Positions 5,144-32,118 of a stretch of 34,605 nt of DNA are shown piece by piece. The notes beneath the pieces were generated by a model, which did no database searches, was not told where the DNA came from, and was given only the letters and a program-made list of their open reading frames with translations. Source of the DNA: a virus. The DNA lies in the IMG/VR virus record IMGVR_UViG_3300017951_000052, positions 1 to 34,605 of that record; one strand, given 5' to 3'. Position numbers and translations under genes: made by a program. Positions within the stretch are counted from its first letter, which is position 1. Each line of letters opens with the position of its first letter.

Positions 5144-5308
5144 CTACTCCGAGAAACTTTCCAAGAAATCGAACGCGATGATTTCAAGTGCGCGTCCCTC
5201 GTCCAGATCCTCGTTGGTCCACTCGCGGCACTTTTGTATAGCCGCGTCAATCATGTGCCGCTGATGTCCTGTCAGTATAATCGGCTCTGTCGGCTGTTCG
5301 GACTTCAT
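5144..5308 (-). CDS. Short acidic protein coupled to terminase
   Basis: 54-residue frame starting MKSEQPTEPIILTGHQRHM and ending FDFLESFSE. It is acidic and mostly helical, with no recognised family. The start overlaps the TerL stop as ATGA (5305-5308), the coupling used throughout this block. That overlap and the short distance to the next gene support it as real despite its length. Confidence 0.65.
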   Translation of the reverse strand: MKSEQPTEPIILTGHQRHMIDAAIQKCREWTNEDLDEGRALEIIAFDFLESFSE

Positions 5309-6753
5309 CGCACGCTCATATCTACAAAGCCGATAAACCCCGCTGAATATTCATGAAACGCGAGTAATGCCGCATCCGTAATATCCGGGGAATGGTCGAT
5401 CTTTTTTTTCATGTCGTCTTTGGAGTCTACCCGTCTGCGTCCGTCCGCTGTAAATGCGTATTCCACCGGCAAGCACTCTTTGATAAGTTGCTCGACAAGA
5501 TCAGGGTCGATTTCCTTACTGAACGCAAGCTGTCTATCGGCTACTCTGTCAGCAAAGGTGAACCACAACTCATCACGCAACCGCACGTACTCATCCGAGC
5601 GCGCGGCATTTTCAGCCACATCGACGGGGATTATTTCGATTATTGGTGATATTAACCCCTGATTCTGTTGATCTTGTAACATATCAACCAGCCCGCCACC
5701 GACCCCGATTGAGTCTATGTTGACGAACTGAATCATCGGATAGTCCTGCAACAACTGAAGTATGATGCCGCAAGTCTCCGCTACTGAGTTGCCGTGCCAG
5801 CGTTCAAGGTACTTGACGTTCTGACCATGCCTGATGCAGATTGCCGTCATGTCGCTGCCGAATCGTGCTACATCGCACCCTAAATACCACGGCTGGCTAG
5901 CCCTGACATCGAACTCCTCTCGCTCTTTACAGTATGCCATGTCAGCCCTGTTTATTAAGGTATTCTCCGAAATGTGCGGGAATTGTCCGTCGATACGCAC
6001 CTGCACTATTGCGGAATCTTTCCCGTACTTGGTTTCCATCCTTTCGATGTGCGCTTTGCTCACCAAGTTGGATTCACGCGCACTGAATTGCAGTGTGTGC
6101 CACACGTTATTGTCGTCGTGATGCGACTCGTAAAACGTGCCGTATGGCAATGTCGGGTTACTTATCATGAGCGCAAGGTTGTGGGGTTCTGACAGGCCAC
6201 CGAGTAGCGCCTCTAGGAACCGATCTTCGACGCCGGACGCCTCGTCGATCACGACCAGCATATGCTCGGCGTGCTCCCCTTGCAGGCCCTCAACGTCACG
6301 GGCTGTTTTCGCAACAGCCGCCCATTTCAACGGCCCCCCTCTTACCTGTACGCGAGTCGCCCGCCACTCTAGGAATTGGTTTAAGAACGCGCTACCCCGA
6401 ATCTGCTTGTCGAGTTCGCCCCAGAGAACTGAATGTAACTGCTTCTCGGTCGGGGCGGTGCAATAGACGAAGGCGTTCTCGAAAACCGTGAGGAACCAAA
6501 GTATCCCCATAGCGGCACCAGTGGTTTTGCCGCAACCTTGTCCACTGGCTACCGAAACGCCGAACTTCCCTTGCCCCGGAGTGAATGACCAGAGAGCCTG
6601 TAGTAACTCTTGCTGGTGCTTATTGGGGTGTAGTCCGATAGCCTCTCGAACGAACTTGATCGGGCCGTTCTTGTCCTCGCGCCATCGGACTATCCTGCGA
6701 CGAACCTCGGTAATGTCGTCGTAAGTCCACTCCTCATGTAACGGCTTTGCCAC
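5305..6753 (-). CDS. terL: Terminase large subunit (packaging ATPase and nuclease)
   Basis: 482 residues. The ATPase domain has Walker A at about residues 70-78 (SGQGCGKTT), Walker B with acidic pair at 165-171 (MLVVIDEA) and a coupling-like segment near 198 (SNPTLPYG). The RNase H-fold nuclease domain has Asp294 in GCDVARFGSD, Asp347 in VNIDSIGVGGG and a third acidic site in DITDAALLA near the C-terminus. The protein pumps DNA into the prohead through the portal and cuts concatemers. The start is GTG at 6753, overlapping the TerS stop as TAGTG; no good SD is seen, so coupling is likely. Confidence 0.95.
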   Translation of the reverse strand: MAKPLHEEWTYDDITEVRRRIVRWREDKNGPIKFVREAIGLHPNKHQQELLQALWSFTPGQGKFGVSVASGQGCGKTTGAAMGILWFLTVFENAFVYCTAPTEKQLHSVLWGELDKQIRGSAFLNQFLEWRATRVQVRGGPLKWAAVAKTARDVEGLQGEHAEHMLVVIDEASGVEDRFLEALLGGLSEPHNLALMISNPTLPYGTFYESHHDDNNVWHTLQFSARESNLVSKAHIERMETKYGKDSAIVQVRIDGQFPHISENTLINRADMAYCKEREEFDVRASQPWYLGCDVARFGSDMTAICIRHGQNVKYLERWHGNSVAETCGIILQLLQDYPMIQFVNIDSIGVGGGLVDMLQDQQNQGLISPIIEIIPVDVAENAARSDEYVRLRDELWFTFADRVADRQLAFSKEIDPDLVEQLIKECLPVEYAFTADGRRRVDSKDDMKKKIDHSPDITDAALLAFHEYSAGFIGFVDMSVR

Positions 6754-7244
6754 TAATGTACGGTAGGCTTACTGGTGACTGGAAATCCGTCGCCATCTTG
6801 CTTTTCCGGCGGCTCATGGAAAACACTGAGAGTCGGACCCTCGACCTTGTGCTTGACGATCTTGTCCTTCGTCTCGTAGACGCCTAGATCCTGCCCGACA
6901 TTGATGACGGATTGGTCTAAAGCCTTCATGTTCTCAACGGCACGCATAGCCGTGTCGAGCTTACCCTCTTTGATCGCCCTCTGCCTGATGCTTTCAAATT
7001 GACGGTAACGCGCCTCTAATTTCGCAAAGAACTTGGGCCAGACCTCTTTAGCATCCCATGCCCGTTTCCGCAGCATCGACATTCTGTATTTATACTGCCG
7101 GACTGTCAGTTTCAGCTCTTTGCGGATTTCAGCGGGTTGATACCCCGCCGCGAGGTAGTTGCCGATCAGCCTCGCCTCCTCGCGCACCTTTTCGGTTCGC
7201 GGACGGCCACGCCGTACTTCAGGCTTGTTGTCGAATATTGGCAT
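6753..7244 (-). CDS. terS: Terminase small subunit
   Basis: 163 residues immediately before TerL. The N-terminal half has a basic segment (VRRGRPRTEKVREEARLI) and an HTH-like region (YQPAEIRKELKLTVRQYKYR), as expected for the DNA-recognition domain. The middle (FESIRQRAIKEGKLDTAMRA) is helical and suited to oligomerisation. The ATG at 7244 has an excellent SD (GGAGG, 6 nt); the frame extends to 7277 but that part is untranslated. Assignment rests on size, HTH, gene order and the TAGTG overlap with TerL. Its cos or pac target is not identified, though a structured element lies directly upstream. Confidence 0.82.
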   Translation of the reverse strand: MPIFDNKPEVRRGRPRTEKVREEARLIGNYLAAGYQPAEIRKELKLTVRQYKYRMSMLRKRAWDAKEVWPKFFAKLEARYRQFESIRQRAIKEGKLDTAMRAVENMKALDQSVINVGQDLGVYETKDKIVKHKVEGPTLSVFHEPPEKQDGDGFPVTSKPTVH

Positions 7245-7274
7245 TATTGCCTCCTCGCAAAATACACCCCACAC

Positions 7275-7411
7275 CACTGTCGCAGCGGATAGCCTTTAGA
7301 GCCGTCCTCAGTCATGCCCAGACGTGGGGTTCAAATCCTTGCGGCGTCCAGACTGCGACATCTGAGGGCATGAGGACCGCAAGGCTAAAGCCTCGCCTAC
7401 GGGAACCGCTG
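7275..7411 (-). other. Large imperfect inverted-repeat element (structured DNA/RNA) upstream of terS
   Basis: The intergenic space holds nested complementary arms: CCGCTG/CAGCGG (7406-7411 with 7283-7288), CTTTAG/CTAAAG (7294-7299 with 7385-7390), GTCCTC/GAGGAC (7304-7309 with 7372-7377) and CATGCCC/GGGCATG (7313-7319 with 7366-7372). A second pairing, TGTCGCAG/CTGCGACA (7278-7285 with 7353-7360), would compete or form a pseudoknot-like contact. The centre (around 7323-7349) reads like a tRNA T-arm, but no full tRNA can be built. In the transcript this would lie in the leader of terS. It could be a regulatory RNA, a packaging signal or a mobile repeat. Confidence 0.55.
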
Positions 7412-7436
7412 AACGAGACTCCAGAAAAACTATCTG

Positions 7437-7532
7437 TTACTTGCTGACCTTGCCGCCGCGCTTTCCGCCGCCGGCCCTCTTCTTGGCGTCTTTCTTTGTC
7501 ACGGCCTTCTTGCCGCCCTTGTTCATGTACAT
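7437..7532 (-). CDS. Lys/Gly-rich mini-protein
   Basis: 31 residues from the ATG at 7532, or 29 from the ATG at 7526, ending GGKVSK. It is almost entirely Lys, Gly, Ala and Arg (for example KKAVTKKDAKKRAGGGKRGG). It follows the stop of the next mini-gene by one base, and a purine-rich AAGGCGGG lies before the start. It could bind DNA or RNA by charge. Real but uncharacterised, or possibly a chance frame; the compositional match to the small protein at 748-891 supports it. Confidence 0.45.
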   Translation of the reverse strand: MYMNKGGKKAVTKKDAKKRAGGGKRGGKVSK

Positions 7533-7533
7533 A

Positions 7534-7656
7534 TTAATTACCCGCCTTCTTTGTTTTTGGCATAGGGCGCGGTGCCGTCACGCAATATGCGCTCCCCTTG
7601 ACCATGCCGGTGCCCTCGCCTCTCGGAACTTGGTTCTTGAGTCCTCGTCTGTCCAT
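7534..7656 (-). CDS. Small basic protein downstream of the modification genes
   Basis: 40 residues, starting MDRRGLKNQVPRGEGTG and ending KTKKAGN. The ATG at 7656 has a near-perfect SD (GGAGGAG), better than most genes nearby, and lies 9 nt after the CmoA-like stop. That makes translation likely. No family is recognised. It and the following 31-residue frame are the last genes before the structured element and terS. Confidence 0.6.
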   Translation of the reverse strand: MDRRGLKNQVPRGEGTGMVKGSAYCVTAPRPMPKTKKAGN

Positions 7657-7665
7657 GCTCTCCTC

Positions 7666-8373
7666 CTATTTTACGGCTAGCCAGCCCTTGAACCCTAATG
7701 CCTGAAAAAAAGACTCCGTGTAGAATCCAGCCGTTTCAAGCATTTCGAGCGTTGCGTCCGCCGGAAGCGGTACGAGCACGTTTTCCAGTGCCGCCGCTTT
7801 CTTGTTTATCTGATCGTCGGTGTACCCTTTGGACTTTTTGTATATCTCGTAGATAAACTTCCACGGGTTGTCGGTATGCTCAAAGCATTTTTCAACGACA
7901 ATAAACGCCCCGCCATCGTTTAGTGATTCATAGGCGTTTTCTATAATGCCCCTACGGCGCTCGACTGGTATAAATTGTAGTGTCAAGATCGCCCAAATCA
8001 CACTGACGCTATATAAATCGCTGGGAAATCCAGAGCGCAGGTCGTGGCGTTCAATCGACTCAACGCACTTTCCCTTTAGTTTTGTCTTAGCCGCAGTGAC
8101 CATACTGGCCGACTCGTCGTATCCCGCATATGTGAATCCGACTGGCCTCGACCACGAATCGTGGTAGTGCGCCCATTGTGTCCCGGTGCTACACCCAAGG
8201 TCTACGCACAGCGAATACTTTTGCGCGTATACACGGGTCAGTAGTGAAACCATTTCGCGCAACCCAGATAAGCCCGGTATGCTGCGTGCGAGCATATCAT
8301 CGAAACAATCAGTGACCGATTGATCGAACTTCCACGCACGACCCGGTACATGATAGCGACTATCCAAAGACAT
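7666..8373 (-). CDS. cmoA-like: CmoA-like protein (carboxy-SAM synthase family), divergent
   Basis: 235 residues and similar to E. coli CmoA over the whole length. Matches include FDQSVTDCFDDMLARSIPG at 17-34, motif I VDLGCSTG at 57-64, LTLQF near 130, GGAFIVVEK near 154, GYTDDQI, ALENVL near 195 and a C-terminal AGF...GWLAVK. CmoA converts SAM plus prephenate to carboxy-SAM, used by CmoB on tRNA. The E. coli carboxylate-binding Arg199 (in QKRSMLENV) aligns with Ala193 here (NKKAAALENV), so chemistry may differ. The ATG at 8373 follows GGAGG and overlaps the DNA methyltransferase stop by 14 nt. No CmoB is nearby, so the partner is more likely the methyltransferase. Family membership is strong; product is inference. 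Confidence 0.85.
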   Translation of the reverse strand: MSLDSRYHVPGRAWKFDQSVTDCFDDMLARSIPGLSGLREMVSLLTRVYAQKYSLCVDLGCSTGTQWAHYHDSWSRPVGFTYAGYDESASMVTAAKTKLKGKCVESIERHDLRSGFPSDLYSVSVIWAILTLQFIPVERRRGIIENAYESLNDGGAFIVVEKCFEHTDNPWKFIYEIYKKSKGYTDDQINKKAAALENVLVPLPADATLEMLETAGFYTESFFQALGFKGWLAVK

Positions 8374-9361
8374 ATTCCAACAACCTCCGCGCAATAGATT
8401 CCGCCACCATCGGCGGAACACACCTTGCTACTCTTTCGAGCTGTGCCTGCGTCCCGCCAGTCAACTTGAAATCCGCCGGAATTGTAGAAAGGGCCTTCGC
8501 CTCATCTGGAGTTATTTTTCTACGAATACCGTCGTCGGTCAGGATGTTTAAGTTGCTGCCGAAAAAACTCTTTGCGTTCTTACCAGCGCGTACCTGCGCT
8601 ACGGTAATTGTTGGAATCGGTGTCTTGTCCGCCGGTAGCCACGAGATACGGCTCGCCCTGTCTTTGCCGTGTACGTGGACCCTTTTTGCGTAGGGTATGG
8701 CATCTCGAACCGTATAGATGTGAGGAGACGGCTTAGGCCATACTGGGTTTTTGCCGAGGTCATCGCGGACGCCAATGAAAAACAGTCGGCGTCGCTTTTG
8801 CGGCACCCCGAGGTATTGCGCGTCGAGTATTTTGGCCTCAACTTTATAGCCCAGTTCGCGGAACAGCCTCATGTATGCCGAGAAAAAAACTCGTGACCTT
8901 CTTTCCGCAAGTCCGGGTACATTCTCGGCCACAAAGACTTTAGGGCGAACCTCTTTGACGATTCGTGCAAGCTCTGGGAATAGGTCGTCTGTACGCTGTT
9001 TCTTGGCACCGGAGTAGTGAGACTTTACGCCCCAGCCATCTTCGCATAATCCGGCGACCGAATAGCTCTTACACGGCGGTGATCCGGTGAGAACGTCTAC
9101 CTCAGTTGTCGGTATCTTGCTGAGAATATCGGTTTGCCCGTTGATCTTGCGTATGTCCCGAGTGTCGAGTATCGCTTTACTGTCATTGCGGGCGTATGTT
9201 TCGGCGGCTGAGCGCACAAACTCATTCGCCCACATTACCTCGTAGCCGCAAAATCGGAACCCGAGGTCCATCCCCCCCATGCCTGAAAACAACGACACGA
9301 CCTTGGGCCCATTCGGCTCAGGAATGTCCGCCATTGATTTGATTCGGTATGGCGGTTTCAT
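8360..9361 (-). CDS. C5-cytosine DNA methyltransferase with altered motif X; candidate carboxymethyltransferase
   Basis: 333 residues with the C5-MTase motifs in order: I (LFSGMGGMDLGF, about 24-35), IV with catalytic Cys97 (GSPPCKSYS), VI (ENVPG, 146-150) and VIII (QKRRRLFFIG, 188-197). A target-recognition region follows, then motif X near 310-317. Motif X normally reads Q-I-G-N-(A/S)-V-P-P; here it is R-V-A-R-C-V-P-P, so the near-invariant Asn is Arg313 (codon 8423-8425). The start is ATG at 9361, overlapping the upstream stop as ATGA. With a CmoA homologue next door, the cofactor may be carboxy-SAM rather than SAM. Plain 5-methylcytosine formation remains possible. Confidence 0.93.
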   Translation of the reverse strand: MKPPYRIKSMADIPEPNGPKVVSLFSGMGGMDLGFRFCGYEVMWANEFVRSAAETYARNDSKAILDTRDIRKINGQTDILSKIPTTEVDVLTGSPPCKSYSVAGLCEDGWGVKSHYSGAKKQRTDDLFPELARIVKEVRPKVFVAENVPGLAERRSRVFFSAYMRLFRELGYKVEAKILDAQYLGVPQKRRRLFFIGVRDDLGKNPVWPKPSPHIYTVRDAIPYAKRVHVHGKDRASRISWLPADKTPIPTITVAQVRAGKNAKSFFGSNLNILTDDGIRRKITPDEAKALSTIPADFKLTGGTQAQLERVARCVPPMVAESIARRLLEYVFG

Positions 9362-16749: not shown

Positions 16750-16834
16750 GCCAGAGTGGCGGAACTGGCATACGCAGGGGACTTAAAATCCCCCGGCTTC
16801 GGCCTTGCGGGTTCGAGTCCCGCCTCTGGCACCA
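16750..16834 (+). tRNA. tRNA-Leu (anticodon UAA)
   Basis: A complete 85-nt type II tRNA. The acceptor arms GCCAGAG/CTCTGGC are followed by A and an encoded CCA. The anticodon arm GGGGACTTAAAATCCCC carries TAA, the long variable arm is CGGCTTCGG-like, and the T-arm GCGGGTTCGAGTCCCGC is perfect. It is co-directional with and just after the small Cys protein gene. Confidence 0.97.
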
Positions 16835-16847
16835 ATGAGGGTCTGCT

Positions 16848-17180
16848 GTGAATGACGAACAATTCGATAAGTGGGGTACTTTAGTCCGTGAGGTCCGTAG
16901 TCATGGGCTTGACGCACTGCGTACACTTGATGGATCGTCGGTTTATCTGCGGCTCGTACAAGAGGGCAAGACTACCTCAAGCAAGATAGAAAAAAACATA
17001 GCTCATCGACGGTTCCACCGCGACCGGGATGAGATACCTCACGCTATTGCAAGGATTTGCAATTACGAAAGGCTTCGGTCTATTGCTGGCAGGGGGATCG
17101 TCCGGCGTCTCGGCGCGGACGGGCTTATGGATGATTTAATCAAAGCGCAAGATCGTGTTTGTCCTGTCTGTGGGGAGTGA
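16848..17180 (+). CDS. Hypothetical basic protein with C-terminal CxxC
   Basis: 110 residues, GTG at 16848 with GAGGG upstream. It has a helical middle with many Arg/Lys (SKIEKNIAHRRFHRDRD) and ends DRVCPVCGE, a half zinc-ribbon. No family recognised. It lies between the two tRNA genes and could bind RNA or DNA from its charge, which is only inference. The next gene starts 1 nt after its stop. Confidence 0.7.
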   Translation: MNDEQFDKWGTLVREVRSHGLDALRTLDGSSVYLRLVQEGKTTSSKIEKNIAHRRFHRDRDEIPHAIARICNYERLRSIAGRGIVRRLGADGLMDDLIKAQDRVCPVCGE

Positions 17181-17181
17181 G

Positions 17182-17394
17182 ATGAAAAAGCCAGATCACG
17201 GAACAATCGAGTTTTACCTTTCGTCGGCACAGGCCCTAGCCGCGACCGGCGATTTGCAAGGCGCATCCTCTATGGCCCTCACGGGTCTATACGAAATGAT
17301 GCCCCATGTGCCAGACGATGCGAGGCGTTTTCTTGTGAATCGCATGATGAACGCCGATGATTTATTCGGCCCCAGTGCTCAGGAGTCCTCTTAA
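17182..17394 (+). CDS. Hypothetical small helical protein
   Basis: 70 residues from ATG 17182, SD GGGGAG. The pattern FYLSSAQALAATGDLQGASS, then ALTGLYEMMPHVPDDARRFL, suggests a short TPR-like helical pair. No signal or membrane part. The gene ends 12 nt before the second tRNA. Its function is unknown. Confidence 0.7.
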   Translation: MKKPDHGTIEFYLSSAQALAATGDLQGASSMALTGLYEMMPHVPDDARRFLVNRMMNADDLFGPSAQESS

Positions 17395-17406
17395 CGCTCC
17401 GCGTTA

Positions 17407-17483
17407 GGCCCTGTAGCTCAGTCGGTTAGAGCGGTGGACTCATAATCCATTGGTCGCGGGTTCGAGTCCCGCTGGGGCCACCA
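17407..17483 (+). tRNA. tRNA with CAU anticodon, Ile2-like
   Basis: A complete 77-nt tRNA with encoded CCA. The anticodon loop is CTCATAA (anticodon CAU). Its acceptor (GGCCC...GGGGCC) and GACTCATAATC anticodon region resemble E. coli tRNA-Ile2, whose C34 becomes lysidine and reads AUA, more than elongator tRNA-Met. A phage copy would help translate AUA codons. Met identity cannot be excluded by eye; the lysidine synthetase would be from the host. Confidence 0.93.
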
Positions 17484-19997: not shown

Positions 19998-20170
19998 GGT
20001 GGTGGTGAGGGCGGGTTATCCAAGAGGGGGTTCGCCACGGTCCTTCCAGTCGGTCCTCACCGCCACCTCCCGTTCCAACCCCGTGAGAGGCGGCTTATGC
20101 ACCCACCGCCGTCGTCTCTCACGCCGAGGCCCCTCGGCTCAGCACCCGCGAAGCGCATGAGCCGAGGGGC
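19998..20170 (+). ncRNA. Candidate structured RNA with three large hairpins
   Basis: The gap between the HTH gene and the gene at 20369 contains nested inverted repeats. Stem 1: GGTGGTGGTGAGG (19998-20010) with CCTCACCGCCACC (20055-20067), 12 of 13 pairs plus a G-T. Stem 2: CGTGAGAG (20082-20089) with CTCTCACG (20116-20123), enclosing GGCGG/CCGCC. Stem 3: GCCCCTCGGCTC (20129-20140) with GAGCCGAGGGGC (20159-20170), or the alternative GCCGAGG/CCTCGGC (20123-20129 with 20132-20138). No credible coding frame fills it. The rest to 20368 has a CTGTCAG/CTGACAG dyad (20327-20358). Whether it is a separate RNA or a leader is open. Confidence 0.5.
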
Positions 20171-22342: not shown

Positions 22343-23719
22343 ATGCCATACAGTATAATCAATTCTGATGTTACCGATGCCCGCCTATCATGTCTTTATC
22401 ACGCCGTTCTGTGTGACCCGCCATATGAACTAGGTTTCATGGGTAAAAAATGGGATGCGACGGGCATCGCGTTCGACCCATCGACTTGGCGAGGTATTTC
22501 CAGTAATTTACATCCGGGCGGTTTCCTGATGGCCTTTGCCTCCAGCCGGGGCTGGCACCGTATGGCGTGCGCCATTGAAGACGCCGGTTTCATTATTCAT
22601 CCGACAATATTCGGCTGGGCGTTCGCAAGCGGTTTCCCGAAAGCGACGCGGATAGACACGCAAATCGACGCGGGGTTAGGTGTTGAGCAGAATGTCGTCG
22701 GCAGACATAAATCACCCCGCAGCGCCCGAAGTCAAAATCTCGCAATGAACGGCGGGTGGCAAGATTCACCTGACGTAACCGCGCCAGTGTCCGAAATGGC
22801 TGTTGCGTGGCATGGTCATCGTTACGGCCTGCAAGCACTGAAGCCAGCCGTTGAGCCTATCATAGTGGCGCAAAAACCTTATGACGGACGCCCTGTCGAT
22901 TGCATCAGCGCAACCGGCGCGGGGGCACTGAACATCGACGCCGGTAGAATCCCGGTAGATTCCGCCCCCGCCGTTGCGCCCGCGCCCCAGCAAACCCTCG
23001 ATCTCTTTGGGGTGGACCCTAGCGAAAGCACGGGTTCGCCTCATTCCGGGCCGGGGGGACGGTGGCCGTCCAATCTGATATTGCATCACGACGCCGATTG
23101 TGGCATCGACGATTGCGTTGATGAGTGCGCTGTATCTCGTTTCTCCGCGAACGCCGGTCAGTCTCGCAGTAATAGCGGGGGTAAGCGTCGCAATCACGGC
23201 ATCATGAGGAAACTGGAGGGGCGGTCTATTACGGACAATGGGGGATATACTGACAAAACCAGCCGTCAAGACCGGGGAACGCGCGCACGGTACTTTTTTA
23301 GAGTCAGGCATCAAATCGACAGCGCCGACCCAATTTATTATTGCCCCAAGGCGTCCCGGCGGGAACGCGACGCCGGGTGTGCCGATTTACCCAAAAGCGT
23401 GTTCCAGAGTGGATGTTCTGGCGATATGCCAATATCTGACACCGGCATTGAACGTGATAGATTCAAAGTCTGTGGGCACAATAATCACCCGACGGTGAAG
23501 CCTATTGCCTTGACGCAATACCTAGCAAGCCTGCTACTCCCGCCGGATTTTTATGCCCCGCGTCGATTATTGATTCCTTTTTCTGGTAGCGGTAGCGAAA
23601 TGATCGGGGCGCTGTTAGCCGGATGGGACGAGGTGACGGGCATAGAAATGGATGAAGCGTATGCCGAATTAGCTAAGCGGCGAATTGCTCACTGGACGCA
23701 CGATCAAACGAGGATTTGA
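22343..23719 (+). CDS. N4/N6-type DNA methyltransferase
   Basis: 458 residues. Motif IV DPPY is near the N-terminus (AVLCDPPYELGFMGKKWD) and motif I-like SAM-binding F-S-G-S-G near the C-terminus (LLIPFSGSGSEMIGALLAGW, then VTGIEMDEAYAELAKRR), with HPTVKPIAL before it. This order (IV first, I last) is the beta-class arrangement. It methylates exocyclic amines of adenine or cytosine and may protect phage DNA from restriction. A long middle section likely holds target recognition. ATG 22343 has no SD. A homologous GP88-like gene overlaps its end. Confidence 0.9.
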   Translation: MPYSIINSDVTDARLSCLYHAVLCDPPYELGFMGKKWDATGIAFDPSTWRGISSNLHPGGFLMAFASSRGWHRMACAIEDAGFIIHPTIFGWAFASGFPKATRIDTQIDAGLGVEQNVVGRHKSPRSARSQNLAMNGGWQDSPDVTAPVSEMAVAWHGHRYGLQALKPAVEPIIVAQKPYDGRPVDCISATGAGALNIDAGRIPVDSAPAVAPAPQQTLDLFGVDPSESTGSPHSGPGGRWPSNLILHHDADCGIDDCVDECAVSRFSANAGQSRSNSGGKRRNHGIMRKLEGRSITDNGGYTDKTSRQDRGTRARYFFRVRHQIDSADPIYYCPKASRRERDAGCADLPKSVFQSGCSGDMPISDTGIERDRFKVCGHNNHPTVKPIALTQYLASLLLPPDFYAPRRLLIPFSGSGSEMIGALLAGWDEVTGIEMDEAYAELAKRRIAHWTHDQTRI

Positions 23720-32057: not shown

Positions 32058-32077
32058 CGCCCCCCGCTGCCGTGACA

Positions 32078-32118
32078 ACGGGGGCGGCAAGTAATCCGGC
32101 TTGCCGCCCCCGTTTATT
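32078..32118 (+). terminator. Strong GC-rich hairpin, probable intrinsic terminator
   Basis: ACGGGGGCGGCAAG (32078-32091) pairs perfectly with CTTGCCGCCCCCGT (32100-32113) over 14 bp with an 8-nt loop, followed by TTATT. The U-run is short, but the stem is very stable. It ends the transcript of the DUF2958 gene. Confidence 0.75.

Follow-up and report, generated by a model that had tools for sequence, protein, structure and literature searches.

A slowly evolving non-coding spacer with nested inverted repeats before a putative terS gene, a tentative candidate for a phage packaging site

The window analysed here is the whole of virus record IMGVR_UViG_3300017951_000052, which is 34,605 bases long and apparently a fragment. 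Its minus strand carries, in order, genes for a DNA methyltransferase and a second methyltransferase, ORFs of 40 and 31 codons, the inverted-repeat element under study, a putative terS, terL, and genes for an HNH endonuclease, a portal and a prohead protease. The large terminase gene terL (5305–6753, minus strand) matches phrog_5902 (8.9e-53) and phrog_2 (6.2e-36); the putative terS (6753–7244, minus strand, 163 aa, ATG at 7244) was assigned by its position before terL, and no family match was found for its product. Between that ATG and the next gene upstream, a 31-aa basic ORF (MYMNKGGKK..., 7437–7532, minus strand), the ORF ends delimit a GC-rich non-coding spacer of 192 bp (7245–7436, minus strand). 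The 137-base element (7275–7411) lies inside it, and its placement in front of terS in the original prediction was correct: the spacer abuts the putative start codon, with terL following. No conserved ORF was found in the spacer; its single short minus-strand ATG frame, picked out by eye, is interrupted by a stop in the relative described below. The 31-aa ORF and its 40-aa companion, both tiny and basic, occupy 7437–7656, and the changes in the 40-aa ORF in that relative are all synonymous.

The element had been described as a nested inverted repeat folding into one long imperfect stem with an alternative 8-bp pairing. Its complementary arms are present: 7290–7296 pairs with 7381–7387 (7/7), 7291–7299 with 7385–7393 (8/9), 7301–7310 with 7371–7380 (9/10) and 7312–7319 with 7366–7373 (8/8). 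Alternative 8-bp pairings were also found, between 7278–7285 and 7353–7360 and between 7337–7344 and 7377–7384. What did not hold up is any exceptional strength of the stem. As plus-strand RNA the element scores z −1.48 against dinucleotide shuffles; the values against shuffles are −0.43 as minus-strand RNA and −2.16 as DNA (−2.66/−2.79 in a contig-wide scan). By DNA fold it ranks about 14th among 480 windows of the contig, some 13 others folding better relative to their own shuffles. A gapped inverted-repeat score as high as the element's 14.5 turned up in 24 of 1000 sequences shuffled locally; of 60 whole-contig shuffles, 59 contained one. The frequency of the MFE structure in the ensemble is 0.02–0.05 for plus-strand RNA and at most 0.0014 for DNA, and in these folding models the one long stem is just one among many near-equal folds. 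The structure of the element is ordinary in strength.

When the spacer was folded in full as DNA, three adjacent hairpins (7389–7420, 7290–7387 and 7274–7288) were preferred to a single stem, and the arms at the far ends of the reported stem went into the flanking hairpins. Hairpin A (13 bp, minus strand, 7385–7424, or 7389–7420 in the DNA fold) is the most stable local piece, with an RNA z of −3.51 for a hairpin picked after the fact; by strength it is not among the contig's top 30, and many local hairpins there are more stable. Hairpin B (7290–7387), predicted from its arms and the spacer DNA fold, is a central nested stem forming the core of the reported inverted repeat, and hairpin C (6 bp, 7274–7288) recruits, in the DNA fold, the left outer arm of the proposed long stem. 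Closer to the gene, a small predicted hairpin with TTGC/GCAA arms (minus strand, 7247–7260) holds the Shine-Dalgarno-like GAGGAG of terS in its loop.

Conspicuous hairpins occur elsewhere in the contig. Those at 20081–20170, with arms GCCGAGGCCCCTCGGCTC and GAGCCGAGGGGC, are very stable and greatly exceed the reported element in strength, the best 45-nt window reaching −36.6 kcal/mol (z −6.0). Another, at 23001–23045 within a DNA methyltransferase ORF, also has z −6.0, and a strong GC-rich hairpin at 32071–32115 (GGGGGCGGCAAG/CTTGCCGCCCCC), followed by GTTTATT, resembles a transcription terminator.

Besides its source, the element was found in only one contig, IMGVR_UViG_3300006919_000199, where it is 97.8% identical, differing at 7340, 7348 and 7391. 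A covariance model run over 91 sources recovered only these two known copies, and it found no homologue in some 80 phage loci whose TerL is related. Protein searches led no further: after the one relative the next best TerL match was 36% identical, a portal search yielded a third contig from which the spacer is absent, a search with the neighbouring methyltransferase gave 37% relatives lacking this terS, and a TerS search gave no carrier beyond the one relative. Both known copies of the element accompany its terS. Colinearity holds over most of the two contigs, with identity that is patchy along the genome; over 5305–9361 the identity forms a mosaic, dropping from about 97% around terS to about 89% in the DNA methyltransferase gene and about 70% in the latter half of terL.

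Across the whole spacer the two contigs differ at 5 of 192 positions, against 32 of 318 fourfold-degenerate sites in the flanking genes (Fisher p = 0.0013), in a test confined to the locally similar block of the two contigs. With the three adjacent genes only, the fourfold count is 12 of 106 (p = 0.003 against the same 5/192), and within this block the fourfold sites flanking the spacer on either side are about four times more diverged than the spacer itself. Given this slower change than at neighbouring fourfold sites, constraint on the spacer is probable. Such low divergence supports a functional non-coding region, not any particular structure. No pair of the three-hairpin DNA fold is lost to these five differences (G-C becomes G-T, G-T becomes A-T, and the rest fall on unpaired bases), which is compatible with that model, although three to five changes are too few to establish a structure, the covariation comparison being limited to one relative at 97.8% identity.

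The original prediction also pointed to a T-arm-like centre while stating that the element is not a tRNA. The 11-mer GGTTCAAATCC (7328–7338, plus strand) does fit the T-arm consensus, but at chance level: about 0.57 matches are expected in the contig, and the two other matches are the two real tRNAs. These, Leu-TAA and Met-CAT, lie in 16750–17483 (at 16750 and 17407), near the switch between leftward and rightward gene blocks. A GC-skew origin signal was considered for the element and rejected, the skew tracking gene direction with no switch near 7300. That the element is no tRNA was confirmed, as neither ARAGORN nor Rfam found a tRNA model match there, and no tmRNA or Rfam family matched. It is highly improbable that the element is a decayed tRNA, a tRNA-derived attachment site or a small mobile repeat, even with the acceptor-like stretch of sequence that follows the 11-mer. 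The core of a would-be attachment site has two base differences between the two phages, the GTDB genome set contains no match to its 23-nt pattern, and neither contig, both being fragments, contains a tyrosine or serine recombinase; an attachment site was rejected. The mobile repeat suggested earlier found no support either: each of the two contigs has the element once, and no second copy turned up in any collection searched, making such a repeat unlikely.

Tailed phages often keep packaging signals directly before terS. The packaging-initiation regions of lambda (cos) and of P22 and SPP1 (pac) lie beside or inside terS. The spacer resembles these in adjoining terS and in being constrained DNA with dyads, but it lacks repeated TerS boxes and sequence similarity to them. 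A foldback near a packaging end has been proposed as a packaging intermediate for the T7 concatemer hairpin end (Chung, Nardone and Hinkle, 1990, as relayed in PMC9503643); the spacer likewise has a foldback near a candidate packaging end, but the sequences are unrelated. In Sinorhizobium phage phiM5 (MF074189), where the deposited left terminal repeat covers bases 1–357 and terL starts at 393, a packaging end similarly lies just before terL and the TerL proteins are distantly related, though only 30% identical, and the element has no match in the phiM5 region. Publications on packaging sites that have inverted repeats before terS offered nothing directly applicable.

We tentatively favour the reading, at somewhat less than even confidence, that the spacer is a cis-acting region of the terminase genes serving as a cos- or pac-type packaging start. 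The reported repeat would then be the middle of a slowly evolving non-coding spacer directly upstream of terS, whose several imperfect dyads would form a DNA site; a TerS ring would bind this site beside its own gene, and the bound TerS would let TerL cut the concatemer there or nearby. The spacer stands directly before the putative terS-terL pair, and its occurrence as a single copy, only with its terS, is what one would predict if the site and its TerS move as a unit. Its low divergence, the pairs kept in the relative and the terminal repeat of phiM5 also speak for this reading. It has been argued (PMC10386132) that small terminases are often exchanged and recognise their own phage DNA, which would fit such travel. 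Against it, no repeated TerS-type motif or direct repeat was found inside the spacer; these are common, not universal, at cos and pac sites. The better-folding windows elsewhere in the contig and the lack of a homologue in the loci with related TerL also count against it. In both contigs the assembly runs unbroken across the spacer; this does not favour a fixed cut at that place but leaves room for one. A more elaborate version is very improbable: the three tandem hairpins would act as a packaging start by extruding foldback DNA, which a TerS without a known family would read, much as in the hairpin-end step proposed for T7, though in a phage lineage unrelated to it.

A packaging signal and a regulatory RNA are both possible for the spacer, and the main functional rival to a packaging site is a terS leader RNA, a rather unlikely one in our judgement. 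The spacer would act in the minus-strand mRNA, with hairpin A separating the upstream ORFs from terS in stability or processing and Shine-Dalgarno pairing tuning terS translation. The substitution test counts equally for such a leader, and hairpin A is a strong local hairpin on the coding strand (7385–7424) kept in the relative, where a U-G pair becomes U-A; the Shine-Dalgarno-like motif can also sit in the loop of the small hairpin at 7247–7260 in the DNA fold. Minus-strand stability is nonetheless no better than that of shuffles (z −0.74 for the whole spacer, −0.43 for the element), no Rfam family matches, and the spacer has no U-run terminator; an intrinsic terminator was rejected on that result. 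A chance fold in a GC-rich spacer comes close in likelihood to either of the two functional readings. The inverted repeats would then be mostly incidental, and low divergence would come from local exchange between the two phages or from promoter and ribosome-site constraint, an account we judge less likely than not. The matching scores in nearly all shuffled contigs, the several stronger folds elsewhere in the contig and the patchy identity between the two contigs all agree with it, but the roughly fourfold greater divergence of flanking fourfold sites within the same block does not. The spacer is probably functional. Were it to prove otherwise than a packaging site, it would be an ordinary GC-rich leader, and would show that striking nested inverted repeats in spacers of this kind have to be judged against a genome-wide null; if it is the packaging site, it would offer a target on which TerS binding can be tested, in a phage lineage where the putative TerS has no match among known families.
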